Shown here: positions 4,203-62,391 of the stretch, in pieces
Layout: each line of letters opens with the position of its first letter
Numbering within the stretch: position 1 is the stretch's first letter
Assembly (NCBI RefSeq): GCF_003312875.1
Contig: NZ_CP015163.1
Location: 8,680,001 to 8,744,000, forward strand
Length of the DNA stretch: 64,000 bases
DNA from: Amycolatopsis albispora
Lineage (GTDB): Bacteria; Actinomycetota; Actinomycetes; Mycobacteriales; Pseudonocardiaceae
Direction of reading: 5' to 3'
Position numbers and translations under genes: made by a program
The notes under the pieces: generated by a model
Databases searched by the model: none
The model's input: the letters and a program-made list of their open reading frames with translations, nothing else
Told to the model about the DNA's origin: nothing

Positions 4203-4341
4203 TGTGCTCGCCGCGCGGCTCGCGTCACGCCGCTCCCGGCCCGGGGATGCTCCCGGCGGCAGCGCCACCCCACCTCGGTGACCGGCCCGCGCCACCCCGG
4301 CGCTCCCGTCTGCGGGTGGGGCGTCTGGCATAGTCACGAAG

Positions 4342-5352
4342 GTGGGAATCATTTCCGGCAACGCGGAGGGTACGGCCCGCAGGAAGCCGAAGATCACCTC
4401 CATCGAGGTGCTCTGCGCGGTGCTGTTGATCGCGATTCTCGCGCAGGGCTGGCTCCAGCAGGTCCTCGACGTGCCCGCGCTGCGCACCGGCTCCACCGTC
4501 TTCGTCGCGGTTTGTGTGCAGGCGCTGCCGTTCCTCGTGCTCGGGGTGCTGATCAGCGGCGCGATCGCCGCGTTCGTCCCCGCGCGCGTACTGCGCCGGG
4601 TGCTGCCGAAGCGCGAGGGCGCCGCGGTCGGGGTGGCCGGGCTCGCGGGAGTGGCGCTGCCGGGATGCGAGTGTGCTTCGGTGCCCGTCGCGCGTCGGTT
4701 GATGGGGCAGGGTGTTGCGCCCGCCGCGGCGCTGACCTTTCTGCTCGCCGCGCCCGCGGTGAACCCGGTGGTGCTGGTGGCCACCGCGGTCGCCTTCCCC
4801 GGCGAGCCGATGATGGTGCTCGCGCGCTTCCTCGCCTCGCTGGCCACCGCGATGGTGATGGGCTGGCTGTGGGCCCGCTTCGGCAAGCTCGAGTGGATCG
4901 CCGAGCGCGCGCTGCGCCGCCTGCCCGACAGCGAACCGGGCTCACGCTGGAAGACCTTCGCCGAGATCGCCCGCACCGACCTGGTCGAGGCGGGCGGCTT
5001 CCTCGTGCTGGGCGCGCTGATCTCGGCCGCGCTCGGCGTGCTCGTGCCGCCGGAGTGGTTTGGCGTGCTGGGCGAGCAGATCGTGCTCGGCATCCTGGTG
5101 ATGGCCGTGCTGGCCGTGGTGCTCGCGCTGTGCAGCGAGGCCGACGCCTTCGTCGCCGCCTCGCTCACCGCGATGCCGCTGCTGCCGAAACTGGTGTTCC
5201 TGGTCGTCGGCCCGGCGGTGGACGTCAAACTGTTCGCGTTGCAGGCGGGCACCTTCGGCCGGTCGTTCGCGCTGCGGTTCGCCCCGGTCACCTTTGTCGT
5301 CGCGACCACCAGCGCGGTGCTCGCCGGATCGTTCCTGCTCGGAGGTTCGTGA
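4342..5352 (+). CDS. DUF318-type permease (YcgR/ArsP-like)
   Basis: The 336-residue protein has about eight membrane helices and the family's cysteine motif PGCECASVPVARRL. A second conserved half-motif lies near LCSEADAFVAASL. Family members are permeases, some moving metalloid or metal species. The next gene overlaps by TGATG and belongs to the partner family, so the two likely form one complex. There is no clear ribosome site before the GTG, which fits a leaderless transcript; a Zur-box-like sequence covers the start codon. With zur and smtB 2.5 kb away, a role in zinc handling is plausible but inferred. Confidence 0.85.
   Translation: MGIISGNAEGTARRKPKITSIEVLCAVLLIAILAQGWLQQVLDVPALRTGSTVFVAVCVQALPFLVLGVLISGAIAAFVPARVLRRVLPKREGAAVGVAGLAGVALPGCECASVPVARRLMGQGVAPAAALTFLLAAPAVNPVVLVATAVAFPGEPMMVLARFLASLATAMVMGWLWARFGKLEWIAERALRRLPDSEPGSRWKTFAEIARTDLVEAGGFLVLGALISAALGVLVPPEWFGVLGEQIVLGILVMAVLAVVLALCSEADAFVAASLTAMPLLPKLVFLVVGPAVDVKLFALQAGTFGRSFALRFAPVTFVVATTSAVLAGSFLLGGS
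4343..4357. promoter_or_regulatory. Candidate Zur box over the permease start codon
   Basis: The 15 bases TGGGAATCATTTCCG match 11 of 15 positions of the actinobacterial Zur box as I recall it (TGAAAATCATTTTCA). They include the central AATCATTT core and keep the dyad. The site covers the GTG start of the permease gene, as expected for repression of a leaderless transcript. Confidence 0.4.
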
Positions 5353-6080
5353 TGCGGCGCGAAACGCAGAACATCCTGCTCGTCCTGCTCGGCGGGGCGC
5401 TGCTCAAGATCAGCCTCAACGGCGACTACCTGCGGTACGTCAAGCCCGCGCACCAGCCGTGGATCATCGCCGGTGGCGCGATCATGGTGCTGCTCGGCGT
5501 GCTCGCCATCGGCCGCGACCTGGTGGCCGCCCGCAGGGCCGCGGCCCCGGCCGGACACGCGCACGAAGGCCACCAGCACCCGGCCCGCTCGGCGTGGCTG
5601 CTGATGGTGCCGGTGCTCGCGGTGTTCCTGGTCGCCCCGCCCGCGCTCGGCTCGGATTCGGTGACCCGCACCCAGGGCCGCACCCCGCAGTCCTCGGCGC
5701 TGCGGGACGCGCAACTCTTTCCCGCGCTGCCCGAGCAGCAGGTGGTGCCGTTGCCGGTTTCGGAGTTCGTCACCAGGGCGGGCTGGGATTCGAGCGGTTC
5801 GCTCAACGGCCGCACGGTTTCGCTGTCCGGGTTCGTCGCCCGCGACGGCGCCGACGTGCTGCTGGCGCGCCTGGTCATCGGCTGCTGCGCGGCCGACGCC
5901 AACCCGGTCACCGTGCGCCTGCTCGGCCCGGGCACCGAGGGCCTGCGGCCGGACACCTGGATCGAGGTCACCGGCGTGGTCGTGCCCGGCACCACCACCC
6001 GCGAGACGAACTACACCCCGGACCTCACCCTCGCCTCGGTGCGCCCGGTACCCGCGCCGAAGGACCCGTACGAATACTGA
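5352..6080 (+). CDS. TIGR03943-type partner of the permease
   Basis: This 242-residue protein begins with two membrane helices (residues 8-25 and 38-58). A His-rich loop (HAHEGHQHPARS) and a third helix follow, then an extracytoplasmic domain with the conserved GFVARDG and VIGCCAADANPV motifs and a double cysteine. It pairs with DUF318 permeases throughout actinobacteria and firmicutes (YcgQ/YcgR-like). The His-rich loop and the double Cys suggest metal binding. The ATG overlaps the permease stop codon. Confidence 0.85.
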   Translation: MRRETQNILLVLLGGALLKISLNGDYLRYVKPAHQPWIIAGGAIMVLLGVLAIGRDLVAARRAAAPAGHAHEGHQHPARSAWLLMVPVLAVFLVAPPALGSDSVTRTQGRTPQSSALRDAQLFPALPEQQVVPLPVSEFVTRAGWDSSGSLNGRTVSLSGFVARDGADVLLARLVIGCCAADANPVTVRLLGPGTEGLRPDTWIEVTGVVVPGTTTRETNYTPDLTLASVRPVPAPKDPYEY

Positions 6081-6084
6081 AGAC

Positions 6085-6765
6085 CTACTGAGCGGCTAGC
6101 GCGCTTTCCGAGAGACGGCCGACGATCGCCGGTGCCTCCCGCACGAGCGAGTCGTCGGTCAGCGCCTCCACCATGAACAGCGCGAAGTCCACGCGCCGCG
6201 TCAGGTTGCTGGCGAGGATCGGGTCGCCGACGTGACGGCTCCACACCGGCAGCCCCTGGCTCTCGCCCTCTTCGAGATCGCTGCCGCGCACGACCGTCCA
6301 CCGCCGGTCGCTGTCGAAGATCCGGCGGCACGCCTCGACCTGGTCGTCGATCTCGACCACGCGCGCCAGCTTCGCCAGCCTGGTGGCGACCCGGACGCCG
6401 GTTCTGAACCGCCACGAGTACCGGTCGAGCCCGTCCCGGCTGATGTGCCAGCCACACGAGAAAACCAGCCGCGCACCGGGTTCGGCGTGGTCGAGCACGG
6501 CCTGCGCGGTGCCCGACGAGTACTGCCGCACACCCCACGGCACGAGCACGGTCAGCACGCCGTCGCAGCCCGCGACCGCCTTCCGGATCACCTCCGGATC
6601 GTTGGTCGGCCCCGGCACCACGGTGATCCGGTCCGCGAACCGGGTGAGCTTGCCCACGCTGCGCTCGCGGCACACGCCGACGACCTCGTACCCGCGATCC
6701 AGTGCCTGTCCGACCATGTACTGCCCGAGCTTTCCCGACGCGCCGATGACGCAGACCTTTTCCAT
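6085..6765 (-). CDS. Atypical short-chain dehydrogenase, NAD(P)-binding (NmrA-like)
   Basis: The 226-residue protein opens with the dinucleotide-binding motif VCVIGASGKLGQYMV. It has the Rossmann pattern of atypical SDR/NmrA-like proteins and a VVRGSDLEEG segment typical of the family. The usual Tyr-Lys active site is not evident, so it may be a sensor or isomerase rather than a classical dehydrogenase. It diverges from the TetR gene at 6840 across two tandem operators, so it is probably the TetR target. Substrate unknown. Confidence 0.8.
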   Translation of the reverse strand: MEKVCVIGASGKLGQYMVGQALDRGYEVVGVCRERSVGKLTRFADRITVVPGPTNDPEVIRKAVAGCDGVLTVLVPWGVRQYSSGTAQAVLDHAEPGARLVFSCGWHISRDGLDRYSWRFRTGVRVATRLAKLARVVEIDDQVEACRRIFDSDRRWTVVRGSDLEEGESQGLPVWSRHVGDPILASNLTRRVDFALFMVEALTDDSLVREAPAIVGRLSESALAAQ

Positions 6766-6785
6766 GTCCCGCTCCCGCCTTCCGG

Positions 6786-6823
6786 ACTTACGTTGTAAGT
6801 AACGCTAGACTTACGCTGTAAGT
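6786..6823. promoter_or_regulatory. Twin TetR operator between divergent genes
   Basis: Two copies of an inverted repeat lie 23 bp apart: ACTTACGTTGTAAGT (6786-6800) and ACTTACGCTGTAAGT (6809-6823). Each has perfect 6-base arms. They fill the gap between the oxidoreductase gene and tetR, as expected for TetR binding that represses both. Confidence 0.75.
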
Positions 6824-6839
6824 ACGTCAAGGAGGGCAC

Positions 6840-7484
6840 ATGCCGAAGCGCGCACCGCTGAGCCGGGAGCGGGTGATCACCGCAGCGATGGAGCTGGCCG
6901 ACGAAAAGGGCGAAGCCGGGCTCACCATGCGGGCGATCGCCGGGAGGCTGGGCGTGGAGGCGATGTCGCTCTACAACCACGTCGGCGGCCGGGACGACAT
7001 TCTCAACGGCATGGTCGACGCGGTGTTCGCCGAAATCGAGCTGCCCGCCCCGGGCGGGGACTGGAAGGCGGCCATGCGCGACCGCGCGGAATCAGCGCGC
7101 GCGGCGCTGCGGCGTCATCCCTGGGCCGTCGGCCTGATGGACTCGCGCAGCCAGCCGGGCCCGGCGACGCTGCGCCACCACGACGCGGTGCTCGGTGTCC
7201 TGCACGCGGGCGGTTTCTCCGTGCCGATGGCCGCGCACGCCTTCTCGGTGATCGACAGCTACCTCTACGGTTTTGTGCTCCAGGAGCTGAGCCTGCCGTT
7301 CACCAACACCGAGGAACTTGACGAGGTCGCCACCGGAATCGCCCGCGACGCGCCCGTCGACGCCTATCCGAACCTGATGGAGCTGATGACCGAGCACGTT
7401 CTCCAGCCCGGTTACACCTACGCGGGCGAGTTCGAGTTCGGCCTGTCGCTGATCCTGGACGCGTTGCGCCCGGACGAAACCTAG
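6840..7484 (+). CDS. TetR family regulator
   Basis: The 214-residue protein has an N-terminal helix-turn-helix (residues 10-50, ending MSLYNHVGGRDDILNGMV) and a C-terminal ligand domain of the TetR_C type. A good ribosome site (AAGGAGGG) precedes the ATG. It is divergent from the SDR-like gene and probably controls it and itself through the twin operator at 6786-6823. Its 3' end overlaps the convergent zur gene by 4 nt. Confidence 0.88.
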   Translation: MPKRAPLSRERVITAAMELADEKGEAGLTMRAIAGRLGVEAMSLYNHVGGRDDILNGMVDAVFAEIELPAPGGDWKAAMRDRAESARAALRRHPWAVGLMDSRSQPGPATLRHHDAVLGVLHAGGFSVPMAAHAFSVIDSYLYGFVLQELSLPFTNTEELDEVATGIARDAPVDAYPNLMELMTEHVLQPGYTYAGEFEFGLSLILDALRPDET

Positions 7485-7903
7485 TTTTCCTTGGAACAGT
7501 CCGCGCAGAGCCCGACGATTTCCACGGTGTGCGAAATGTCGGAGAAACCGTTGCCCGAGGCGATCTTCTCCGCCCAGCGCTCCACCGCCGGGCCCTCCAC
7601 CTCGACGGTGAACCCGCACCGGCGGCAGACCAGGTGGTGATGGTGGTGCGAGGAGCAGCGCCGGTAGATCGCCTCGCCGGATTCGGTGCGCAGGACGTCG
7701 ATCTCGCCTGCCTCGGACAGCGACTGCAGCGTCCGGTACACCGTGGTCAGGCCGATGCCCTCACCACGCTTGCGCAGCTCGTCGTGGAGTTCCTGCGCCG
7801 ACCGGAAGTCGTCCACCGTGGCCAGCAGCTCGACCACGGCCGCGCGCTGCTTGGTGGACCGGCGTCCCGGCAGCGGGGCCGGTCCTCGGGTCGGGATGCT
7901 CAC
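7481..7903 (-). CDS. zur: Zinc uptake regulator, Fur family
   Basis: This 140-residue Fur-type protein has the winged helix (STKQRAAVVELL through GIGLTTVYRTLQSL), a His-rich HHHHHLVCRRC motif, and a C-terminal GLCADC pair that forms the structural zinc site. Zn-loaded Zur represses uptake genes. Its GTG overlaps the smtB stop by one base (TAGTG), giving a smtB-zur operon as in mycobacteria (Rv2358-furB). Assignment as Zur rather than Fur rests on this smtB partner and is therefore partly contextual. Confidence 0.9.
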   Translation of the reverse strand: MSIPTRGPAPLPGRRSTKQRAAVVELLATVDDFRSAQELHDELRKRGEGIGLTTVYRTLQSLSEAGEIDVLRTESGEAIYRRCSSHHHHHLVCRRCGFTVEVEGPAVERWAEKIASGNGFSDISHTVEIVGLCADCSKEN

Positions 7904-8292
7904 TACTGCTTGCCTTCCTGCACGTGTGCCACCGCGTCCACCACGATATGCGCCAGGTGGTCGTCCACCAGCCGGTAGACCACCTCGCGGCCGCGCCGCT
8001 CGCCGTGCACCACCCCGGCCGCCTTGAGCACCCGCAGGTGCTGGCTGATCAGCGGCTGCGCCACCTCGAGCGAGTCGACCAGTTCGTGCACGCAGCGGTC
8101 GCCGTCACGCAGCTGCAGCACGATCGAGATGCGCACCGGGGCGGCCAGCGCGCGCAGCAGCTCACCGGCCTCGACCAGGGTGGCCGCGGACGGCGTCGGC
8201 GCGTGCGGGGACGGCGTCCTGGCCGGCGAGTGCACGTGCTCGGCGTCCTCCGGCAGACCGGGTGGTGCGGCGTCCGGGCTCACCGTCGGCAT
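7903..8292 (-). CDS. smtB: ArsR/SmtB-type metal-responsive repressor
   Basis: The 129-residue protein has a Pro/His-containing N-terminal arm and then an ArsR winged helix (LLRALAAPVRISIVLQLRDG, LISQHLRVLKAAGVV). The C-terminal helix DHLAHIVVDAVAHV carries the Asp and His residues of the alpha-5 metal site. Zn binding would release it from DNA. It is the first gene of the smtB-zur operon. GGAG stands 7 nt before the ATG, and a TAGGAT element upstream (near 8333) could be its -10 box. Confidence 0.9.
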   Translation of the reverse strand: MPTVSPDAAPPGLPEDAEHVHSPARTPSPHAPTPSAATLVEAGELLRALAAPVRISIVLQLRDGDRCVHELVDSLEVAQPLISQHLRVLKAAGVVHGERRGREVVYRLVDDHLAHIVVDAVAHVQEGKQ

Positions 8293-8516
8293 CGTCCACT
8301 CCAGCGGTTGGCGAAAAGGGTTGTCCTTACCATCCTAGTGCCCATCTCAGGGACTAGGCCGTTCGAGTGACATCCGGTCGAAATCGTGAGTAAGTTTCCT
8401 ATCTTGTGGACGGCCGTGCGAAGTTGGCCGCACCGCGGGGTCTGGGGACGCGCGAGCAACCCCTGCGCGTGGTCACGCGTGAGACACGGCAAGAGCGCCT
8501 ATGAAGCTGAGGAGCC

Positions 8517-9584
8517 ATGACGCGTTTTGTGACGAAGCTGGCCGCCGGTACGACGGCACTGGCCTTCGCGGTCGCGCCCGGGGTGGCGTCGGCCCAGGTC
8601 GACGAGGAGACCGGCCCGGTCGCCTACGCCAACGCCGCGGCGGCGAAGGTCGGCGAGGGGGAGAATGCGGGCACCCTGGTCACCGAGACGCAGAAGTCTC
8701 CGCTCAAGGCGGGCGAGTCGAGGCTGTCGCAGGACCGCATCCTGCTGCCCAAGGACGACGGCGAGAAGAACGCCATCGGCCCGAACTACCTGGTGCACCT
8801 CGGCAAGTACGACCCGGCGCACAGCCCGTACCCGGAAGGCGTCGCAAGCCGCGACCACAACGTCGTGGCGACGCTGAAGGACAACAACGTGCCCACGGCC
8901 ACCGCCGAGACCAACTACGCGCTGCAGGACACCTCGATCGGCGGCCACAGCGACCTCGAGAACACCCTCGTGGTGCTGAGCGGGGCCAAGACCAGCGTGG
9001 AATGCGCGGGCAGTGACAAGGTCACCGGCACCACCACCGCGGAGAAGCTCTGGGTGCGCAACGCCGACGGTGAACTCGTCGAAGAGAAGGTGCCCGCCGC
9101 CGGCGGTGAGGTAAAGCTGACCGACCTGCCGTTCGGCGCGCCGCGGGACACCGACGCCAAGGTCGGCGTCGAGGACCCCGCCAAGACGCGCTCCGACCTG
9201 ACCGTGCGCCCGATCTCCGAGTTCGACTCGCTGCTGCGCCAGGACCAGTGGCGCAAGGGGGAGCTGAACGCCGCCGCGGGCTGGCTCGTCGAGGTCGTCA
9301 CGCGCGTCAAGGACAAGGACGACAAGGTCATCGAGGAAGTCCCGAGCCGGTACGTGCTCGGCGGGGTCAGCTGCTCGATCCCGGAGAACTTCAAGCCGTC
9401 GGAGCCGCAGTCGAGCACCCCGCAGGTGCCGACGAAGATCCCGGCGGGCGCGATCACCCCGGAGCACACCGATGGTGGCGTGTCGCCGCTGGGCCTGTCG
9501 CTGCTCGGTGGTGGCTTGCTGCTGGGCACCGGTGCCGTGCTGACGCTGCGCCGTCGTCCCGCGCCGGCCGAGCGGAAGAGCTGA
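8517..9584 (+). CDS. Secreted surface protein with C-terminal membrane anchor
   Basis: The 355-residue protein has a signal peptide cut near ASA-Q (residue 27), a beta-rich exported body (residues 30-300), a Pro-rich spacer, and a C-terminal hydrophobic helix followed by RRRPAPAERKS. This is the layout of cell-wall sorted proteins, and the next gene is a sortase. A canonical LPXTG or LAXTG motif is missing, however: the spot before the helix reads EHTDGG. It may use a degenerate motif or simply stay membrane-anchored. Function unknown. Confidence 0.75.
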   Translation: MTRFVTKLAAGTTALAFAVAPGVASAQVDEETGPVAYANAAAAKVGEGENAGTLVTETQKSPLKAGESRLSQDRILLPKDDGEKNAIGPNYLVHLGKYDPAHSPYPEGVASRDHNVVATLKDNNVPTATAETNYALQDTSIGGHSDLENTLVVLSGAKTSVECAGSDKVTGTTTAEKLWVRNADGELVEEKVPAAGGEVKLTDLPFGAPRDTDAKVGVEDPAKTRSDLTVRPISEFDSLLRQDQWRKGELNAAAGWLVEVVTRVKDKDDKVIEEVPSRYVLGGVSCSIPENFKPSEPQSSTPQVPTKIPAGAITPEHTDGGVSPLGLSLLGGGLLLGTGAVLTLRRRPAPAERKS

Positions 9585-9588
9585 CCTG

Positions 9589-10254
9589 GTGGAAACGCCT
9601 CCCGTCGAGCCGGAAGTCCCGCGCCGCCGCAAGCTGATCGCGATCGTGCTCGCCGTCGTCGCGGTGGTGGTCACCGGGGTCGGGATCTGGGTGCTGGCCA
9701 GCGGCCCCGAGCCGGTGCCGGTGGCCCAGCCGCCCGCCCCGGTGCCGGTGCGGGTGCCGGCGGAGACCTCGGCCCCGGCCGCGCCGGTGCAGGTCGCCGA
9801 ACCCGCGCAGAGCCCCGGCACGGTCCGGCTGCCCGAGGGCGGCACGGCGAAGCTGGTCCGCAAGGAGGTCACCGCCGACGGCGTGCTGCCGATCCCGGAC
9901 GGCCTCGACGAAGCCACCTGGTGGGGCGCCAAGCTCGGCGACAGCCAGGGTGCGGCGCTGCTGTCCGGCCACGTGAACTGGAAGCGGCAGAACGGCCCGT
10001 TCGACGAGCTGTGGCGCAGCAACCCGGGGCAGGAGGTGAGCGTGGTGGACACCGGCGGCGGGCAGTGGAAGTACCGGATCACCGAGGTCCTCACGCTGCA
10101 CAAGAACGAACTGCCCCAGCACGCGCAGCAGCTGTTCGGCCAGGACGGGCCGCACCGGCTGGTGCTGGTGACCTGCGGCGGTGACTACGTGGGCGGTACC
10201 GAGGGCTATCAGGACAACCGGATCGTGACCGCGGAGCTCGTCTCGCGGCCGTGA
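9589..10254 (+). CDS. Class F-type sortase
   Basis: The 221-residue protein has a short cytoplasmic tail, one membrane helix (residues 15-36), a Pro/Val-rich linker, and a sortase barrel. The catalytic triad is visible: His in LLSGHVNWKR, Cys in LVLVTCGGDY, and Arg in YQDNRIVT. It cleaves a sorting motif and joins the protein to the cell wall or a partner. It starts 4 nt after the upstream surface protein, its likely substrate. The class is assigned from size and layout. Confidence 0.88.
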   Translation: METPPVEPEVPRRRKLIAIVLAVVAVVVTGVGIWVLASGPEPVPVAQPPAPVPVRVPAETSAPAAPVQVAEPAQSPGTVRLPEGGTAKLVRKEVTADGVLPIPDGLDEATWWGAKLGDSQGAALLSGHVNWKRQNGPFDELWRSNPGQEVSVVDTGGGQWKYRITEVLTLHKNELPQHAQQLFGQDGPHRLVLVTCGGDYVGGTEGYQDNRIVTAELVSRP

Positions 10255-10366
10255 TCCGCGTTTGCCTTTTCACCCAAGGTAAACCCCTCGCGGAGGGCGC
10301 GGAGCGCAGCGGATACCCTGACAGTTCCAAGTCAGATGTTCGTCCCCGCATGTCACGGAGCGTGGA

Positions 10367-11752
10367 GTGCCCGCCAACACCATCGAGACCGTAGTCAGTC
10401 TCTGCAAGCGTCGTGGTTTTGTCTTTCCGTGCGGGGAGATCTACGGGGGTACCCGGTCGGCGTGGGACTACGGCCCGCTCGGCGTGGAGATCAAGGAGAA
10501 CATCAAGCGCCAGTGGTGGAAGTCCATGGTGCAGGGCCGCGACGACGTGGTCGGCCTGGACTCCTCGGTGATCCTGCCGCGCCCGGTGTGGGTGGCCTCC
10601 GGTCACGTCGAGGCCTTCGTCGACCCGCTGGTCGAGTGCCTGTCGTGCCACAAGCGCTTCCGGGCCGACCACCTGAGCGAGGAGTACGCCGAGCGCAGCG
10701 GCAAGGAGATCGCCGAAGGCGACCTGACCGACGTGCCGTGCCCGAACTGCGGCACCCGCGGCCAGTACACCGAGCCGCGTGAGTTCAACGGCCTGCTCAA
10801 GACCTATCTCGGTCCGGTCGAGTCCGAGGAGGGCCTGCACTACCTCCGCCCGGAGACCGCGCAGGGCATCTTCGTCAACTTCCTCAACGTGCAGACCACC
10901 TCGCGGAAGAAGCCGCCGTTCGGCATCGGCCAGATCGGCAAGTCCTTCCGCAACGAGATCACCCCGGGCAACTTCATCTTCCGGACCCGCGAGTTCGAGC
11001 AGATGGAGATGGAGTTCTTCGTCGAGCCGGGTGAGGACGAGGTCTGGCACCAGCGCTGGATCGACACGCGCACCGAGTGGTACACCGATCTCGGCATCAA
11101 GCCGGAGAACCTGCGCCACTACGAGCACCCCAAGGAAAAGCTGTCGCACTACTCGAAGCGGACGGTGGACATCGAGTACCGCTTCGGCTTCGGCGGCCAG
11201 GAGTGGGGTGAGCTGGAAGGCATCGCGAACCGCACCGACTTCGACCTCACCACGCACTCGAACCACTCCGGCGTGGACCTGTCCTACTTCGACCAGGCCA
11301 GCGGCCAGCGCTACCGGCCGTTCGTGATCGAGCCGGCGGCCGGTGTCGGCCGGTCGATGATGGCCTTCCTGGTCGACGCCTACACCGAGGACGAGGTGCC
11401 CAACGCCAAGGGCGGCGTGGACAAGCGCGTGGTGCTGAAGCTGGACTACCGGCTCGCGCCGTACAAGGTGGCCGTGCTGCCGCTCTCGCGCAACGCCGAC
11501 CTCACGCCGAAGGCCCGCGACGTGGCGGCCGCGCTGCGCAAGCACTGGCACGTCGACTTCGACGACGCCGGGTCGATCGGCAAGCGCTACCGCCGCCAGG
11601 AGGAGATCGGCACGCCGTTCTGCGTCACCGTCGACTTCGACTCGCTCGAGGACCACGCGGTGACCGTGCGCGAGCGCGACACCATGCGCCAGGAGCGGAT
11701 CTCGATCGACCAGCTGGAGTCCTACCTGGCCGCGCGGCTGATCGGCTGCTGA
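10367..11752 (+). CDS. glyS: Glycyl-tRNA synthetase, class II dimeric type
   Basis: The 461-residue enzyme shows the class II layout of the alpha2 glycyl-tRNA synthetase: [12 protein letters not shown] at the N-terminus, a zinc-like Cys pair region (CLSCHKRF and CPNCGTRG), motif 2 ([24 protein letters not shown]), and motif 3 ([14 protein letters not shown]). A C-terminal anticodon-binding domain follows. It charges tRNA-Gly in the cytoplasm. The GTG at 10367 starts the conserved N-terminus. Confidence 0.97.
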
Positions 11753-11827
11753 CCCCTGACGGATGTCATGGGCAGGTCGTGACGAGCGGCCTGGGGTCCG
11801 GGCGGCCTCCGGCGCGACGCTGGAGGC

Positions 11828-12730
11828 ATGACCAGAGATTCACACGCGGTCCGGCTTTCGGGGCTGCGCAAGCACTACGGGACGGTCCGGGCGGTCGACG
11901 GCGTCGAGCTGGCCATCGCGCCGGGTGAAGTCGTCGCCCTGCTCGGGCCGAACGGCGCCGGGAAGTCCACCACGGTGGACCTGCTGCTCGGGCTGACCCG
12001 GCCGGACGCGGGCACGGCCACGATCTTCGGGCTGAGCCCGGCCGAAGCGGTGGCCGACGGCGTCATCGGCGCGATGCTGCAGGGCGGTGCGCTGCTCGAA
12101 GACGCGACCGTCGGCGAGATGGTGGAAATGGTGGCGTCGCTGCACCGCGCGCCGCTGCCGGTGGGCGAGGCGCTGCGCCGCGCGGGGGTCACCGAACTCG
12201 CCGGGCGGCGCGGGACCAAGCTGTCGGGCGGGCAGAAGCAGCGCGCGCGGTTCGCCATCGCGCTGGTCAGCGATCCGAGCCTGCTGGTGCTCGACGAGCC
12301 CACCGCGGCGATGGACGTCGGCACGCGCCGGGAGTTCTGGCGCGGGATGCACGAGTTCACGAACACCGGCCGGACCGTGCTGTTTGCCACGCACTACCTC
12401 GAAGAGGCCGAGGACTTCGCCGACCGGGTGGTGCTGATGCGCGGTGGCCGGGTGGTCGCCGACGGTTCGGTGGCCCAGGTGCGGGCGCTGGCCGGTGGCC
12501 GCACCATCCGCGCGGTGGTGCCCGGCCTGAGCGCGGCCGTGGCCGGGGAACTGCCGGGAGTGTCCGATGTGGAGCAACGCGGTGAGCAGGTGGCGTTGTC
12601 CAGCCGGGATTCCGATGCCACCCTGCGTGCGCTGCTGCGCGAATACCCGGCGGCACACGAGATCGAGGTGTCCGCGGTCGGTCTCGAAGGCGCGTTCCTG
12701 TCCCTGACCGCCGAAGGGAGCGCCCGATGA
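11828..12730 (+). CDS. ABC exporter ATP-binding subunit
   Basis: The 300-residue protein has Walker A GPNGAGKST, the signature LSGGQKQR, Walker B LLVLDEPTAAMD and the switch His (LFATHYLEE). A C-terminal extension of about 80 residues is typical of drug/lipid exporter ATPases. It overlaps the permease gene by ATGA and heads a four-gene operon with a sensor kinase and response regulator. The ribosome site lies unusually close to the ATG (one base). The exported substrate is unknown. Confidence 0.92.
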   Translation: MTRDSHAVRLSGLRKHYGTVRAVDGVELAIAPGEVVALLGPNGAGKSTTVDLLLGLTRPDAGTATIFGLSPAEAVADGVIGAMLQGGALLEDATVGEMVEMVASLHRAPLPVGEALRRAGVTELAGRRGTKLSGGQKQRARFAIALVSDPSLLVLDEPTAAMDVGTRREFWRGMHEFTNTGRTVLFATHYLEEAEDFADRVVLMRGGRVVADGSVAQVRALAGGRTIRAVVPGLSAAVAGELPGVSDVEQRGEQVALSSRDSDATLRALLREYPAAHEIEVSAVGLEGAFLSLTAEGSAR

Positions 12731-51725: not shown

Positions 51726-51892
51726 CGCTTCTCTCCTTCGGTCGCGCTCGGCCTGACGGGATTGATCTGATCACCCGGGCGCACCCCGTCGCGCGGTCCG
51801 TGGGACACCGTGGGACACGCGGAACGCGCTTGACCTGCGCAAACCTCGTCCTGATCCAGTTCGGTGGGCTGGGACGGGTACCGTGTTCCACC

Positions 51893-54184
51893 GTGTCGAG
51901 CCCCCAGCAGCGACTGGTCACCCAGCTCGCACGGATCAAGGACCTGAGCGGGCTCAGCCTGCGTGCGCTGGCCAAGCAGGCCGGGCTGAGCAGCTCGTCG
52001 CTGTCCCGGTACCTGACCGGCAGGCTGGTGCCGCCGTGGGAGGCCGTGGTGGCGCTGTGCCGCGCGGTCGGCCGCGATCCCCGGCCGCTGCGCCCGATCT
52101 GGGCCGAGGCGGCCAAGGCCGGGGCGGCCCCGCCGCCGCGCCGCAACGACCTGCCCGCCGACCTGATCGACTTCACCGGGCGGGAAGCGGAGTACGCGCG
52201 GGTCGAAGAGTTGCTGCGGACCGCGGGCGCGGTCGCGATCGACGGCATGCCGGGGGTGGGGAAGACCAGCCTGGCCGTCCACGTGGGACACCGGCTCGCG
52301 GCGGCATATCCGGATGGCGGGCTCTACCTCGACCTGCGGGGTTTCACGCCCGGCGAGCAGCCGCTGGACGCGCAGACCGCGCTCGGCCGGTTGCTCGGCG
52401 CACTGGAGATCAGCCAGCCGCCCGCCGGTACCGACGAGCGCGCGGCGCTCTGGCGGTCCGAGCTGTCCCGCCGCCGGGCACTGGTGGTGCTCGACAACGC
52501 GGTCGACGCGGAGCAGGTGCGCCCGCTGCTGCCCGGCGCCGGCCAGTCCGCGGTGCTGATCACCAGCCGGTCCCGGCTGGTCAGCTTGGACGGCGTGCCG
52601 CCGGTTTCGCTGGCGCCACTGGCCGACGACGACGCCGCGCACCTGTTCGGCCGGGCCGCGGGGGTCGCGCTCGCCGAGGAGGAGGCGGTCGGTCAGGTGC
52701 TGTCGCAGTGCGGCGGGCTGCCGCTGGCGCTGCGGATGGCCGGTGCCCGGTTGCGGCACCGTCCCGGATGGACGGTGGCCGTGCTCGCCGAGCGGCTGCG
52801 GGAGGGCGCCGGTCGCTTCGACGCGGTGTTCGGCATGTCGCTCGAGCAGCTCGACGCCGAGCAGCGGCGCGTGTTCCGATTGCTGGGTGTGCTGCCGGGT
52901 GCCGACTTCGACGAGGCGGCGGTGGTCGCGCTGACCGGCCTGCCGCGCGGCCGCGTCGAGGCGGCGCTCGAAGAGCTGGTCGACGCGCATCTGGTCCAGG
53001 AGCCGTCGCCGGGGCGGTACCGGATGCACGACCTGCTCCGCCGCTACGCCGCCGACCTCGCGGCGGAGGAGGAACCGCAGGCCGACGCCGCCGTGCGCCG
53101 GGTGCTGGAGCACTACCTGGCGGAGGCGATCGCCCATGATCGGGTGCTGCCGTCCCCGCGGCGGCCACAGCCTTCGCATGGTGATCCGGCGAAGGCGATG
53201 GCCTGGTTCGACCTCGAATACGTCAACCTGATCGCCGCCTTCGATGCGGCCGTGCGGCTCGGCGTGGACGAGGTGGTGGCCGAGTTGCCGCAGGCCATGC
53301 ACGTCTGGTTCTTCCGGCATCGCGGCACCGGCGACCAGACGCGCCTGCTCGATGCCGCCGCGGCTGCCGCGGGACGGCTGGGGCGTGACCGGGAACGGGC
53401 TTCACTGCTGTCGGACCTGGGCTTCGCGCACGCGGCCGCGGGCCGCCTGACTGAGGCGCTGGCCGCGTACGAAGAGGCTGGTAAGTCCGATGTGGACGAT
53501 CCTGAGCTGGTGGCCGGATTGGCCCTGCGGACCGGTTTCGTGCGCCGGGATCTCGGCGACCTCGAAGCGGCGCAGGCCTGTTTCCGGCGGGCGCGGGAGT
53601 TGTTCGAGCAACTCGGTCACCGCGGTGGGCAGGCGCAGGCGCTGGCCTTCGACGGCTGGGTGACGTGGCGGCTGGGCTCCTCCGGCGAAGCCGCCGAACT
53701 CGCCAGGACGGCGGTCGACCTGGCCGACGGGCCCGCGCGGATCACCGGCCTGGTCACGCTCGGTGTCGCACTGGCCGAGACCGAACCGGCCGAGTCGCTG
53801 CGAACACTGCACGAGGCGTTGTGGTTGGCGGAGGAGCACAACCTCCAGCACAACCAGGCGTGGTGCCACAACTACCTCGGCGTCGCGCTGCGGGTGATGG
53901 GGGAGCTGGACCAGGCCGTGGAGCACCACCGGCGCGCGCTGGAGCTGCTGGAACCGCTGGCGGAGGCGCAGCTGGAGATCGACTGCCTGCGGTCCTACGC
54001 CGAAACCTGCCGCGCCGCAGGACGCCCCGAGGAGGCACAGGCGCTACTCGACAAAGCCGCCACTGTCACGAATGTGGCTTTCGAGACGCAGAACGTCTCG
54101 AAAGCCACATTCGTGACACCGAGCCCGCATGCGGGCCAGGCCGAAACCGGCCCCGCCGCGGGGGTCGCGGGCGGGGCCGGGTGA
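51893..54184 (+). CDS. XRE-NB-ARC-TPR regulator (STAND family)
   Basis: The 763-residue protein has an N-terminal Xre-type helix-turn-helix ([19 protein letters not shown]), an NB-ARC ATPase domain with Walker [13 protein letters not shown] and Walker [11 protein letters not shown], a winged-helix region, and TPR repeats from about 480 to 715. Such STAND proteins are signal-gated switches that often regulate secondary metabolism. I chose the GTG at 51893 before SSPQQRLV. The last 40 codons run through the 55-bp palindrome at 54064, so the original C-terminus was probably changed by its insertion. Confidence 0.88.
54064..54118. repeat. 55-bp perfect inverted repeat, copy 3 (inside a coding frame)
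   Basis: Both 25-base arms are identical to the copies at 4148 and 15442; only the loop differs (CAGAA for CCAAA). This copy lies within the open frame of the NB-ARC gene and encodes [18 protein letters not shown] near its C-terminus. Confidence 0.95.
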
Positions 54185-58024: not shown

Positions 58025-59665
58025 ATGACAGGCCGGGGGTTCCGCGAAGAGCTGACCCAGTTGCTGCAGGCGCGTTACCCGCTGCTCGTCGTCGAGACGC
58101 ACGAGGAACAGCGCGTGGTGCGGGAAATCCGCGCCGTCGCCGAGGACGGGTCGCGGCTGCGCACGCCGCGTCGGGTGCACGTGTGGTCCTCGACCACGGG
58201 TCTGGTCCCGGCCGGTGGCGGCGCGCCGGTGGCCGAGACGAGGGCGGCCTCCGCGGCGCTGGAGCGCGTGTACAGCTGGAACGAGCCCGGCGTGTTCGTT
58301 TTTGTCGACCTGCACCCGTCGCTGGTCTCCGAGGGCGGCCACCGCCCCGACCCGGAGGTCGTGCGCCGCCTGCGTGAACTGGCCACCACGCTCAAGACGC
58401 GCCCGGTCCCGCTGACCGTCATCCTGGTCTCGCCCGCGTTGAAGGTGCCGCCGGAGCTGGAGCACGACGCCACCGTCATCGACTTCCCGCTGCCCGACCA
58501 GCAGCAGATCGGCGAGCTGCTCGACAGCATGGTCGCCGCCCACCGGCACCAGGTGCGCATCGGCATCACCAGGGAAGACCGCGACACCTTCATCGCCGCG
58601 GCCCGCGGGCTCACCCTGCCCGAGGCGGAGAACGCGTTCGCCCGCGCGCTGGTCGAGGGCGGCGGGCTCGACCCCGGCGACCTCGAGCTGATCCTCGCCG
58701 AGAAGCGCCAGGCGGTGCGCCGGTCGGGCATGCTCGACATCGTGCCCGCGGAGGTGAGCTTCGAATCCGTCGGCGGCCTCGAACGGCTCAAGCGCTGGCT
58801 GACCAAGCGCAGCGGCACCTGGACCCCGGCCGCGGCGGCGTACAACCTGAGCGCGCCGAAGGGCCTGCTGCTCACCGGCGTTCCCGGGTGCGGCAAGAGC
58901 CTGTCCGCGGTGTGCGTGGCCAGCATGTGGCGGCTGCCGCTGCTGCGCCTCGACCTCGGCCGCGTGTTCGCCGGGCTGGTCGGTTCCAGCGAGAAGAACA
59001 TGCGCGCGGTGATCCGCACGGCGGAGGGCATCGCGCCCTGCGTGCTGTGGGTTGACGAGATCGAGAAGGGCCTCGCCGGCGCGGGCGGCGGTGGGGACGG
59101 CGGCACCGCGCGGCGGGTGTTCGGCACCTTCCTGTCGTGGATGCAGGAGAAAACCGCGCCGGTTTTTGTGATGGCCACGGCGAACCAGGTCGACTCGCTG
59201 CCGCCGGAGTTCCTGCGCAAGGGCCGGTTCGACGAGATCTTCTTCGTGGACCTGCCCTCGGCCGCCGAGCGGGCGGTGATCTGGCGGATCCACCTGCGCA
59301 AGCGGGTGACCGACGAGTTCGTCGGCAGCGAGCTGACGATGGATGACGCGTTGTTCGCCGAGCTGGCCGCGTGCAGTGACGGCTACAGCGGCGCCGAGAT
59401 CGAGCAGGCCGTGCTGTCCGGGCTGGTCGACGCCTTCGCCGAAAAGCGGCCGCTGCGCAAGGAAGACCTGGTGCACGCGGTGAAGTCGACCGTGCCGCTG
59501 TCGGTCACCCAGGCCGACGAGATCCTGGCCATCCGCAACTGGGCGGAGACGCGCGCGGTCGCCGCCACCGACGACAGCAGCCTCGCCCCGGCGCCCGCAC
59601 CGCCCGCGGCGGCCGCGCCGCCGGAGCCAGCCGAGTCACTGCCGGGAAGGACGATCGACGTATGA
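58025..59665 (+). CDS. Ycf46-like AAA+ ATPase
   Basis: The 546-residue protein has an N-terminal domain of about 240 residues ([33 protein letters not shown]) typical of Ycf46. An AAA+ module follows with Walker A GVPGCGKS (285-292), Walker [11 protein letters not shown] (339-348), sensor-1 ATAN and an arginine-finger region RKGRFDE (399-405). The C-terminus is Ala/Pro-rich. It is the first gene of a five-gene operon in which every pair overlaps. The client is unknown. The start follows AAGGGGGG. Confidence 0.92.
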
Positions 59666-59877
59666 CGCACCGGGTGACCGTGACCGTCGGGCGTGACGGC
59701 TCGATCAGCGCCGAGACACACGGCGTGACGGGCTCGAAATGCCTCGACTACATCCCGCTCCTGGAGGATCTGCTCGACGCGGAGACGGTGTCCTCGGAGT
59801 TCACCGAGGACTACCGCCGCACCACGACGACCGCGGAGCACCAGGCGACCCAGCAGCAGTCCCAATGGAACTCCTGA
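59662..59877 (+). CDS. DUF2997 protein
   Basis: This 71-residue protein starts [20 protein letters not shown] and continues with TGSKCLDYIPLLEDLL, the DUF2997 signature with one conserved Cys. DUF2997 proteins are usually encoded next to Ycf46-like ATPases and DUF1257 proteins in cyanobacteria and actinobacteria. The ATG overlaps the ATPase stop (ATGA), and its own 3' end overlaps the radical-SAM gene by 13 nt. Function unknown. Confidence 0.88.
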   Translation: MTHRVTVTVGRDGSISAETHGVTGSKCLDYIPLLEDLLDAETVSSEFTEDYRRTTTTAEHQATQQQSQWNS

Positions 59878-60473
59878 ACCTCCACCGGATCGTCGACGCG
59901 ACGCTGGCCGAAGGGCCGGGCCTGCGGTGCGCGGTGTGGACGCAGGGCTGCTCGGTCCGTTGTCCCGGCTGCTTCAACCCGCAGACCTGGACCACCCGCG
60001 GTGGCACGCGGATGCCGTGGCCCGAGGCGGCGGAGCGGGTGCTGCGGGCCCGCGACGAGCACGGCGTCCAGGGCGTGACCTTTCTCGGCGGCGAGCCGTT
60101 CGACCAGCCCGAGCCGCTCGGCGCGCTGGCCGCGGCGGTCCGCGCGGAAGGGCTGTCGGTGATGACCTTCACCGGGCACCGCGTGGAGGAACTGCGCGTG
60201 CGGCCGGACTGCGCGGCGCTGCTGGCGTCGACGGACCTGCTGGTCGACGGGCCGTACCTGGCGGACAAGCCGGAGCCGAGCCGGCCGTGGGTGGGGTCGG
60301 CCAACCAGCGCTTCCACTTCCTGACCGACCGCTACGACGAGTCCGTGCTCGACGCCCCGAACCGGCTCGAGCTGCGGATCGCGACCGACGGCTCGGTGGA
60401 CCTGAACGGGTTCGCCACCACCGAGGCACTGGAGGCGCTGCTCGCGCCGGTGCGTGAAGGGAACAACCGATGA
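59865..60473 (+). CDS. Short radical-SAM (NrdG-like) protein
   Basis: The 202-residue protein has the 4Fe-4S motif CSVRCPGC (Cys29, Cys33, Cys36; Cys-X3-Cys-X2-Cys), the FLGGEPFDQPE segment for SAM binding, and a C-terminal part ending in FATTEALEALL. It resembles NrdG-type activating enzymes, which make a glycyl radical on a partner. No glycyl-radical enzyme is encoded in this window. The ATG at 59865 lies inside the DUF2997 gene, and its end overlaps DUF1257 by 4 nt. Confidence 0.9.
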   Translation: MELLNLHRIVDATLAEGPGLRCAVWTQGCSVRCPGCFNPQTWTTRGGTRMPWPEAAERVLRARDEHGVQGVTFLGGEPFDQPEPLGALAAAVRAEGLSVMTFTGHRVEELRVRPDCAALLASTDLLVDGPYLADKPEPSRPWVGSANQRFHFLTDRYDESVLDAPNRLELRIATDGSVDLNGFATTEALEALLAPVREGNNR

Positions 60474-60913
60474 GCGTCGTCCTCAAGCTGCGCAGCCAGG
60501 CGCTGGCCCAGCTCAACGCCGCCACCCTCGCCGCGCACACGCAGGCGCAGGCCGGGCAGGTCACCGTGCGCACCCGCATGCGGCACCGCGACCTGCTCAC
60601 CAAGGCGCTGACCGGGCTGAACGCGCAGGTCACCAGCGACGAGAACACCGTGGTCGCGCAGTGGGCGGGGCGGCGGATCCAGTTCACCTACGGTCCCGAC
60701 GGCGTGCAGCTGGCGCATGTGGACGGTCCGTCGATCAATCCGGCCGAAGCCGAGCAGCTGGTGCTGTCGGTGGACAACGCCTACGCGGCCGAGGTGCAGC
60801 GCCAGGTCTACGAGCGGCTCAAGGAGCGCGCCGCCCAGTCCGGGATGCGCGTGGAGTCCGAGCGGACCAACGCCGACCAGTCGATCAGCGTCACGCTGGT
60901 CGCCACCTCGTGA
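60470..60913 (+). CDS. DUF1257 (Ycf35-like) protein
   Basis: The 147-residue protein has the DUF1257 pattern: RTRMRHRDLLTKALTGLNAQ, a VAQWAGRRIQFTYGPDGVQL sheet, and a helical AEVQRQVYERLKERA before a final strand. Ycf35 proteins occur in cyanobacteria and red-algal plastids, often near Ycf46, and have no known activity. The ATG overlaps the radical-SAM stop by 4 nt, and the next gene's GTG overlaps its stop. Confidence 0.87.
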   Translation: MSVVLKLRSQALAQLNAATLAAHTQAQAGQVTVRTRMRHRDLLTKALTGLNAQVTSDENTVVAQWAGRRIQFTYGPDGVQLAHVDGPSINPAEAEQLVLSVDNAYAAEVQRQVYERLKERAAQSGMRVESERTNADQSISVTLVATS

Positions 60914-62391
60914 CCGAGCGCAGGATCGGGCTGATCGAGTTCGGCAAGGCGCTCAACGACTCGGTGTCCGTGCCCGGTCTCGGTGAACTGCCCGGTGGGC
61001 AGGTGAGCGCGGGCCGTGCCACCCGCGGGGCGAGGGCGCGGCTGATCCGGAACGACCGGGTGCTGGCGGACAACCTGCGCCTCGGGATCATGGTGCGCAA
61101 GAAGTTCTTTTCGAGTGAGGTCGAGCCGGTGTCGGAGGTCGGCTTCCTCAAGGACATCTTTGTGGTCGTCGGGCGGCGGGACCTCGGCAACGGTGACGCG
61201 CTGGAGCTGTACAGCGACGAGGAAGCGCCGCCGGACACGAGCAGGCAGGTGGGGCAGGCGCAGGTGCACGCGCCGTACTTCGACGAGATCACCGGGGTGC
61301 GGCTGCAGGTGCAGCAGCGCGGCGGGGTGCTGCGGGACGGGGCGCTCGTCGGACTGGTCCGCGGTGGCCGGGGCGGTGGTCAGCCGATGCGGGTGCTCAA
61401 GCTGTTCGGGCCTGCCGGGCCGGTGCCGGAACTGCCCGCGGGGCAGCACGGCACGGTGCTGCTCGGGTTCCAGTGCGAGGTGCAGCCGATGGCCGGGGAC
61501 GCGCTGGTCGCGTTCGACGAGCCGGAGTTGGAGTACCTGGAGCACCGGGAGGGTGTGGCCGTGACGCACGGGGTGAACCACCTGCCGGACGGCACGGTGG
61601 TGGCCGCGGTCGAGGTGCCGGACGTGCTGAAGGGCAACCGGCTCAGCGTCGGCTCGCTGGTGCGGGTGCTGCGCCCGGCGGGGACCACGTTCAACGAACG
61701 GTCCACAGTGGTCGCGACAGGGGTGCGGATCACGTCGCTGGCGCAGCACAACATGGCCGTGCCGGTGGCGAGCGGGACCGGGGTGTTCACCGTCGGCCTG
61801 TCGAGAACGGACCTGCGCGAGGGCGACACGATCGAGGCCCACATCCCGGCGCCGGGAACGCCGGGCGCGCCACCGGTACTCGCTCCGCCCCCGACGCTCG
61901 GCGGGGGCCCGATGACCGGCCCCACGCCGATGGGCGCCGCGCCAATGGGCGCGATGCCACCCGGCTTCCCACCCCCGACGGGTCCGCAGCCGACTGGCCC
62001 CGCGCTGACCGGGCCACAGCCGATCGGTCCCGCGGTGACTGGGCCGCAGGCTGCCGGGCCCGGCGTGACCGGGCCGCAGCCGACCGGCGCCGCGGTGAGC
62101 GGGCCGCAGGCTACCGGGGCCGCTCTCACCGGTGGCGCGCCGGGCTCGTCCGGGCAGCTCACCGACCTCAACACGGCACCGCCGCCGGATTTGGCGCGGC
62201 TGCCCGGCATGACCCCGCAGCGCGTCGCCGCCGCCGTGGAACTGCGCCGGCGGCAGGGCGGCTTCGCCGATGTCGAGGCGTTCGGCGTCGCCGTCGGGTT
62301 GCAGCCGCATGAGATCGTCCGCCTTCGCGCCCGCGCGACCACGAGCCGTATCCAGCACCACAACACCGGCGTCCGCCAGCTCGACATCTAA
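60910..62391 (+). CDS. Barrel protein with Pro-rich repeats and ComEA-like HhH tail
   Basis: The 493-residue protein has three parts. Residues 1-330 form beta-rich segments with two barrel-like repeats (FLKDIFVVVGRRDLGNGDAL, GVAVTHGVNHLPDGTVVAAV). A low-complexity linker (about 335-425) contains five 10-residue GPQ-type repeats. The C-terminus has a ComEA-like helix-hairpin-helix domain (TDLNTAPPPDLARLPGMTPQ, then VAAAVELRRRQGGFADVEAF). The latter binds DNA in its relatives. I do not recognise the first domain. Overlapping GTG links it to DUF1257. Confidence 0.88.
   Translation: MTERRIGLIEFGKALNDSVSVPGLGELPGGQVSAGRATRGARARLIRNDRVLADNLRLGIMVRKKFFSSEVEPVSEVGFLKDIFVVVGRRDLGNGDALELYSDEEAPPDTSRQVGQAQVHAPYFDEITGVRLQVQQRGGVLRDGALVGLVRGGRGGGQPMRVLKLFGPAGPVPELPAGQHGTVLLGFQCEVQPMAGDALVAFDEPELEYLEHREGVAVTHGVNHLPDGTVVAAVEVPDVLKGNRLSVGSLVRVLRPAGTTFNERSTVVATGVRITSLAQHNMAVPVASGTGVFTVGLSRTDLREGDTIEAHIPAPGTPGAPPVLAPPPTLGGGPMTGPTPMGAAPMGAMPPGFPPPTGPQPTGPALTGPQPIGPAVTGPQAAGPGVTGPQPTGAAVSGPQATGAALTGGAPGSSGQLTDLNTAPPPDLARLPGMTPQRVAAAVELRRRQGGFADVEAFGVAVGLQPHEIVRLRARATTSRIQHHNTGVRQLDI
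61978..62127 (+). repeat. Five 30-bp tandem repeats in the linker of the HhH protein
   Basis: Five units of about 10 codons encode variants of TGPQPTGPAL. Most third positions differ, so the array is old enough to have drifted, but the spacing is kept. It gives the linker between the barrel and HhH parts a regular Pro/Gly structure. Confidence 0.85.

Follow-up and report, generated by a model that had tools for sequence, protein, structure and literature searches.

Two proteasome activators of Actinobacteria, Mpa and Bpa, are non-homologous, yet the available text of PMC8223512 and PMC6017811 describes them as sharing a GQYL tail that docks into pockets of one hub. In cyanobacteria, the genes duf2997, ycf35, and fed7 form "cluster g," and according to the part of PMC4284462 available, cells that lose Fed7 withstand oxidative stress, metal stress, and iron limitation less well, and Fed7 itself binds a DnaJ-like protein. 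In red algae, retention of plastid ycf35 and ycf46 is said to track habitat, a pattern that the authors tie to iron (PMC5940233, in the portion available). Finally, nucleoside triphosphate (NTP)-dependent conflict systems combine an AAA+ motor with variable partners, and for one subset a radical S-adenosylmethionine (SAM) domain is proposed to modify a peptide (eLife 2020, available text of PMC7159879). Here we describe an operon from Amycolatopsis albispora. It lies in a window, meaning the whole stretch analyzed, of 64,000 nucleotides (RefSeq assembly GCF_003312875.1, contig NZ_CP015163.1, positions 8,680,001 to 8,744,000) within a genome of one 9.1-Mb contig, and it encodes a Ycf46-like ATPase, a DUF2997 protein, a radical SAM protein, a DUF1257 (Ycf35)-like protein, and a protein with a helix-hairpin-helix (HhH) module. 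The operon belongs to a recurrent system with a conserved gene set, and its ATPase and non-homologous HhH protein share the C-terminal motif R-x-[ILV]-[DE]-[FLIVY].

How does this locus compare with its described relatives? Like Mpa/ARC and Bpa, it pairs an AAA+ ATPase with a non-homologous protein bearing a common short C-terminal tail. However, the tail is R-x-hydrophobic-D/E-hydrophobic instead of GQYL, and the operon has no proteasome subunit but does have a radical SAM protein and two DUF proteins; the tails GRTIDV and VRQLDI match neither the GQYL nor the HbYX type of proteasomal C terminus. As in cluster g, DUF2997 and DUF1257 adjoin an iron-sulfur protein, but there it is a ferredoxin rather than an NrdG-like radical SAM protein, and the available text of PMC4284462 lists no ATPase or HhH protein. 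The slr0144-slr0152 "pap" operon of cyanobacteria was considered as a further connection and set aside, as slr0147 is described as a V4R protein and fed7 is sll0662 in the text available. The NTP-dependent conflict systems resemble the operon in their motor with variable partners; they differ in that DUF2997, Ycf, and HhH go unmentioned in the available main text of PMC7159879 and that PADLOC recovers none. A preliminary description made from the sequence knew of no account of such a system, and searches of an open-licence library, which leaves subscription journals and preprints mostly outside, turned up no publication that treats either the set of five genes or the tail.

The five genes overlap successively by 4, 13, 4, and 4 nucleotides at 58025-62391 on the + strand, just as the preliminary description had them, and a re-reading of the open reading frames (ORFs) bore this out. 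Third-position G+C is 0.91-0.96 across all five, which fits the expectation for real genes in a GC-rich Amycolatopsis genome. The features, by window position and with lengths in amino acids (aa), are as follows.

58025..59665, + strand: Ycf46-like AAA+ ATPase, 546 aa, ATG start
58877..58900, + strand: ATPase Walker A motif GVPGCGKS, aa 285-292, from the sequence and a 15-row alignment
59645..59662, + strand: ATPase C-terminal tag, ...GRTIDV-stop, matching the strict tail pattern
59662..59877, + strand: DUF2997 protein, 71 aa, PF11211; overlaps the ATPase gene by 4 nucleotides
59722..59742, + strand: DUF2997 G-x-x-G-x-x-C motif GVTGSKC, aa 21-27, from a comparison of 38 sequences
59865..60473, + strand: NrdG/pyruvate formate-lyase (PFL)-activase-like radical SAM protein, 202 aa; overlaps the DUF2997 gene by 13 nucleotides
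59949..59972, + strand: radical SAM CxxxCxxC [4Fe-4S] motif, C29, C33, and C36, from a 16-sequence alignment
60470..60913, + strand: DUF1257 (Ycf35)-like protein, 147 aa, divergent; overlaps the radical SAM gene by 4 nucleotides
60910..62391, + strand: HhH-tag protein, 493 aa, GTG start; overlaps the DUF1257-like gene by 4 nucleotides
60934..61221, + strand: first barrel resembling the IF-2 C-terminal domain, HhH protein aa 9-104, profile-profile P 8.8e-8, probability 94
61642..61848, + strand: second IF-2-like barrel, HhH protein about aa 245-313, profile-profile P 1.6e-7, probability 94
62152..62334, + strand: helix-hairpin-helix module, HhH protein about aa 415-475, LPGM hairpin intact and LQPHE hairpin degenerate (by eye)
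62371..62388, + strand: HhH protein C-terminal tag, ...VRQLDI-stop, matching the strict tail pattern

How widespread is this gene set? When an ATPase alignment was run against 84,980 species genomes, at least 590 stretches matched, of which 139 were confirmed and 80 kept (L061-L140); every reading frame of the fetched loci was then searched with family profiles. Of the 11 fetched genome loci that have the HhH family, 7 hold the complete set of five in a cluster (L062, L065, L066, L068, L069, L070, and L071), and the genomes concerned, Neobacillus, Paenibacillus, Clostridium, Tenacibaculum, Microbacterium, and two unassigned, span Bacillota, Bacteroidota, and Actinomycetota. The other four (L061, L063, L064, and L067) are one to three families short, and their contigs end in or near the cluster. 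Close homologues of the HhH protein (E < 1e-100) occur in 5 of 24 sampled Amycolatopsis genomes, the host included, and the other four loci carry all five genes in identical order. ATPase, DUF1257, DUF2997, HhH, and radical SAM genes also stand in a row on conjugative plasmids of Rhodococcus aetherivorans and Arthrobacter ZXY-2, with profile E values (Rhodococcus/Arthrobacter) of 4e-12/1e-13 for DUF1257, 2e-10/1e-8 for DUF2997, 3e-9/1e-10 for HhH, and < 1e-55 for the radical SAM protein, for which a longer frame was taken on the Arthrobacter plasmid, the annotated nrdG start being short. That the five genes belong together is supported by their co-clustering in HhH-bearing loci, in all four same-genus loci, and on two plasmids.

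The complete plasmid operons, all actinobacterial, came from a plasmid search with a Bacillota-type ATPase (669 records, mostly partial, 61 covering at least 80% of the query, with enterobacterial genera as the bulk of the displayed counts); a plasmid search with the window HhH protein gave no matches. A SpoVK/Ycf46/Vps4-like antitoxin is described in the sgiAT operon of SGI1, in the text available. In a FastTree phylogeny of the ATPases, the HhH-type group mixes phyla and includes one archaeon, which together with plasmid carriage points to horizontal transfer, probably of the five-gene system as such. The flanks of the four same-genus loci (3-8 kb per side) lack the genes that flank the operon in the window, except for one partial TPR/STAND match. 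The window gene in question, upstream of the operon at 51800-54184, encodes an HTH-NB-ARC-TPR (STAND-type) protein; the locus with its partial match, which is 35% identical and close to the operon, is L235.

In the wider ATPase family, the partners are often missing: for 51 of the 82 ATPases of L061-L140, no member of the other four families is encoded on the same strand within 4 kb. Separation of the genes in most relatives, which the preliminary description named as a refutation of its reading, is therefore seen in the wider ATPase family but not in the HhH-type subgroup. The core of ATPase, DUF1257, DUF2997, and radical SAM protein also occurs without HhH, accompanied by families F4 and F5 in L090, L091, L109, and L110 (F4 in L091 is a superfamily 1 helicase by Pfam, and DUF1257 in L090 was missed by profile, a frame of the same cluster, F10, being found), by a WD40-repeat protein in L111, and by an Hsp70-domain protein in L114. 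In L095 (Polyangiaceae, 4814-11912), three ATPase-family frames surround DUF1257, DUF2997, and the radical SAM gene, and the start of a 778-aa frame there appears by eye to resemble the glycine loop of protein kinases. Among 24 ATPase-bearing virus records, matches at E <= 1e-3 place DUF2997 in 13, of which 12 pass the cut-off, and DUF1257 in 9, of which 6 do. DUF2997 was detected in only 3 of 396 sampled genomes of the phylum, two above cut-off and one of the three being the host. The ATPase and its partners, characterized in the preliminary description as known mainly from cyanobacteria and plastids, are found instead in many bacterial and some archaeal genomes.

The feature that ties the ATPase to the HhH protein is the tail, counted strictly as R.[ILVMF][DE][ILVFYM] at the extreme C terminus. 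Of the 438 stop-to-stop frames in the window that reach 80 aa, 2 carry it, and they are exactly the ATPase and HhH genes. In the locus set, with ORFs cut by a locus end set aside, it is present in 24 of 25 HhH-family proteins and in none of 38 DUF2997, 26 radical SAM, and 41 DUF1257 proteins. All 77 window-type HhH homologues among the matches listed, the window protein included, have the tail, as do 78 of 82 of the Neobacillus type; the four misses are a ComEA-like protein ending in VLGQ and three proteins ending in GRLGDI, RRIIDC, and GRVIDW. The ATPases nearest that of Neobacillus (the best 120 of at least 7980 matches) bear it in every case. Of their final eight columns, six reach 98-100% conservation and two stand at 49% and 66%, whereas 19 of the 21 columns directly before the motif, in the variable linker, are only 15-54% conserved. 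Tails of ATPase and HhH protein in single loci read RGGRTIDF and GRVIDF in Aneurinibacillus, RGGRQIDF and RRLDL on the Arthrobacter plasmid, and RGGRTFEF and GRRLEF on the Rhodococcus plasmid. On virus contigs (93 non-redundant loci), 11 of 2069 neighbor genes encode the tail versus 1.3 expected from internal five-residue frequencies; they comprise two HhH proteins of one contig, three proteins in one locus (the YpsA/SLOG trio described below), two in another, and four single ones.

Some tails occur in other settings. In L222, from the same virus contig as L051, three proteins ending in KRIVEL or KRIVEV (4336-5639 and 10173-12158) surround an ATPase ending in TRVVES; one belongs to the YpsA/SLOG family and two have no Pfam family above cut-off. 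The Treponema succinifaciens plasmid pTRESU01 (L271, 5345-13076) encodes a radical SAM protein and an ATPase ending in VRKLEM, then a protein annotated as phage baseplate assembly protein V and another of 1164 aa, and this stretch is possibly a contractile injection-like cluster. A second type of ATPase tail, approximately LRQExxNPF, is found in L090, L091, L109, L099 (looser), and the virus loci L043/L044; ATPases of this type adjoin F4 in L090, L091, and L109 and a helicase-domain protein in L099.

What are the individual proteins? The family names given in the preliminary description hold up, four of the five by Pfam and DUF1257 through profile-profile comparison alone. The ATPase has an AAA domain (Pfam E 6e-27), matches phrog_8638 at E 7e-143 across aa 4-517, and has the full-length similarity, active AAA module, and additional N-terminal half of a Ycf46-like protein. 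Close relatives bear the database names SpoVK/Ycf46/Vps4, a search at E <= 1e-80 returns at least 7980 protein clusters, and the closest solved relatives by sequence profile are Cdc48/VCP. Its layout consists of a degenerate AAA-like half (about aa 1-225), an active AAA module (about aa 236-470), a variable linker, and the C-terminal tag. Because the N-terminal half aligns colinearly with the protein's own AAA half (hhalign P 2.5e-5, probability 75), it looks like a tandem AAA protein whose first module is dead. The Walker A motif of the second is intact, with G285, G288, G290, and K291 invariant across 15 aligned rows.

The DUF2997 protein passes the Pfam model PF11211 (56.2 bits versus a cut-off of 24.1, E 3e-15), and its GxxGxxC motif is near-invariant, with the second glycine at 97% and the cysteine at 95% in 38 sequences, making it a candidate redox or radical site. 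The DUF1257-like protein is more divergent and falls below the PF06868 cut-off (13.8 versus 22.2 bits, E 0.07), but a profile of its own type matches a separate canonical DUF1257/Ycf35 profile (hhalign P 1.3e-11, probability 97%). A natural DUF1257-DUF2997 fusion in L108 supports a physical complex of the two. The radical SAM protein contains Fer4_12 (Pfam E 2e-34) and Radical_SAM (E 1e-10) domains, and its closest relatives are NrdG and the PFL activase, with which it shares small size and the CxxxCxxC and GGE motifs; CxxxCxxC is invariant across an alignment of 16 that contains the window protein, and the conserved GSxNQR region is reminiscent of NrdG.

The HhH protein is a composite. Its HhH module (HHH_3, Pfam E 1e-7) resembles those of EEPD1 and ComEA, and the preliminary description called it ComEA-like. 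It differs from ComEA in detail: the score against the comEA model is 17.6 bits versus a cut-off of 152.35, and in the operon family only the first hairpin is intact and the second is degenerate, as judged by eye in the alignment, with a tag appended and the N terminus variable. Unlike it, the ComEA-like proteins in the genomes of L062 and L068 (L261 and L260) have both hairpins intact and no tail. The nearest named homologues of the window protein are from Amycolatopsis, and in the Amycolatopsis type the N-terminal part holds two barrels resembling the C-terminal domain of translation factor IF-2, as judged by profile-profile comparison with 16 long proteins that we take to be IF-2; the middle third gave no match by that method, and a PDB profile search with the HhH protein finds IF-2 at E 0.0075. 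The linker at 61894-62140 is, by eye, a degenerate repeat rich in T-G-P/A-G-P, and most listed homologues are shorter than the window protein, at about 390-430 aa.

The module and tail are portable. Most matches to the Neobacillus HhH protein have its N-terminal family, but in some the module and tail follow unrelated N termini (GYF_2, DUF2628, DUF805, and TPR with zinc ribbons), and in another case, where the tail ends in cysteine, they follow RDD with what by eye is a zinc ribbon. Of the 25 HhH frames of the loci, 17 contain a hydrophobic segment (Kyte-Doolittle maximum over 19 residues > 1.6), mostly near the N terminus, although that of L071 falls inside an over-long frame. L066 has seven HhH-tail genes consecutively. 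A conserved C terminus joined to a variable N terminus is more suggestive of a tag on client proteins than of a dedicated DNA binder.

What might the five proteins do together? The reading we prefer, tentatively and with a little less than even confidence, is that the operon encodes a tag-guided, ATP-driven protein-remodelling machine with a portable C-terminal tag and redox or radical chemistry. The precedent of Mpa and Bpa is the reason, by analogy, for regarding the shared tail as a docking tag. The Ycf46-like AAA+ ATPase would be the motor and the HhH protein a tagged client or adaptor. A hub of DUF1257 and DUF2997 would receive the tag R-x-hydrophobic-[DE]-hydrophobic of motor and clients alike, the motor would thread or remodel the tagged clients, and the radical SAM protein would act on hub, tail, or client by redox or radical chemistry. 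Threading of clients is general AAA+ biology. Why place the reader in the DUF proteins? Of 17 ATPases that bear the strict tail, 15 have DUF1257 or DUF2997 close by, versus 12 of 65 tail-less ones (Fisher 1.6e-7, uncorrected for relatedness). Since cyanobacterial tails occur beside DUF1257 with no radical SAM gene detected, and verrucomicrobial tails with only a distant one, DUF1257 and DUF2997 appear to be better candidates than the radical SAM protein.

Several observations weigh against this docking scheme. In independent pairs, the link between tail and DUF1257 nearly always runs in the same direction but is not significant (median p 0.125), and the 12 tail-less ATPases just counted do adjoin DUF1257/DUF2997. 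The strict pattern was set after such tails had been seen, so the tail counts serve as description and need to be read with the controls. In the mixed locus set only 25 of 112 ATPases have the strict tail, and on virus contigs 21 of 93; the fetched Prochlorococcus ATPases lack it. In phage Catdawg, the ATPase alone among 127 annotated proteins carries it, with no partner gene and no DUF1257/DUF2997 match, and the Treponema plasmid has a tailed ATPase and a radical SAM gene with no DUF1257, DUF2997, or HhH gene in the 13 kb fetched.

Could the tail instead be the substrate of the radical SAM protein, with the Gly-Gly-Arg end of the ATPase, and possibly HhH tails too, receiving a modification or a radical? 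The targets of activases are short glycyl loops at the C terminus, and the kinship with NrdG and the PFL activase speaks for this idea, as do the GGR in the tail of 118 of the best 120 of at least 7980 ATPase matches and the GGR of all eight HhH-type full-tail ATPases with a nearby radical SAM gene, while L074, L076, L077, L083, and L084 have none. But the glycine pattern is confounded with a single clade, the window ATPase tail has one glycine, not two, the L095 tail KRRRIFEV near an NrdG-like radical SAM gene has no glycine, and glycine is absent from many HhH tails (ER-x, L064-L066) and from cyanobacterial and verrucomicrobial tails; we regard the idea as unlikely. A conventional activase of a glycyl-radical enzyme or anaerobic ribonucleotide reductase is extremely doubtful. 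A match to the NrdG model TIGR02491 (E 1e-31) and the public annotation of the Arthrobacter gene as nrdG favor it, yet the score of 109.7 bits is under the equivalog cut-off of 126.1, and a check for glycyl-radical targets, as the preliminary description had proposed, detected none: NRDD (PF13597) and Gly_radical (PF01228) have no match in the Amycolatopsis genome, while 6 and 3 of 14 controls were positive. The NrdG identity was rejected on both counts.

The preliminary description leaned toward a conflict system or a modification or repair machine, and neither fares well. If the operon served conflict or defence, the HhH protein would be the effector; in favor of such a role are the sporadic distribution of DUF2997 in the phylum, plasmid carriage and differing flanks within the genus, the superfamily 1 helicase linked to a core variant, and the radical SAM effector proposed for other conflict systems in the text available of PMC7159879. 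However, PADLOC-DB 2.0.0 gave only partial AAA and radical SAM matches (IetA, TRIP13, and pVip), with three of the five proteins matchless and no multi-member full-length system; virus records themselves carry the core; the HhH N termini scanned are membrane, GYF, TPR, barrel, or without a Pfam family, none being a toxin family; and ycf35 and ycf46 are ordinary genes in cyanobacteria and plastids in the literature available. Such a role seems quite unlikely. A repair or modification machine in which nucleic acid (DNA or RNA) is bound by the HhH protein and modified by the radical SAM protein would accord with the resemblance to EEPD1 and ComEA, the IF-2-like barrels, and the helicase. Against it are the second hairpin, degenerate in the operon family but intact in ComEA-like proteins, the frequently hydrophobic N termini, and the tag-like behavior of the module behind varying N termini, and we consider it very unlikely.

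The docking scheme can be carried further, with correspondingly low confidence. As a speculation, the operon may be a protein-tagging system in which a portable HhH module and tag recruit unrelated, often apparently membrane-bound clients to an equally tagged AAA+ motor. The radical SAM protein would chemically switch either this tag or the DUF1257-DUF2997 reader, so that iron or redox state governs how clients are handled. Reduced versions would then survive in cyanobacteria, plastids, and phages, with a ferredoxin in place of the radical SAM protein or with neither.

Overall, Ycf46, Ycf35 (DUF1257), and DUF2997 are proteins whose function is unknown or merely suspected in the literature available, and yet plastids, cyanobacteria, and many bacteria have kept them. 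The C-terminal tag offers a concrete, cheaply testable handle on what reads it and on what is pulled or modified. If docking is true, this would be a tag-and-motor system distinct from the proteasome, Clp, Lon, and FtsH and coupled to radical chemistry, and the tail could list its clients genome by genome.

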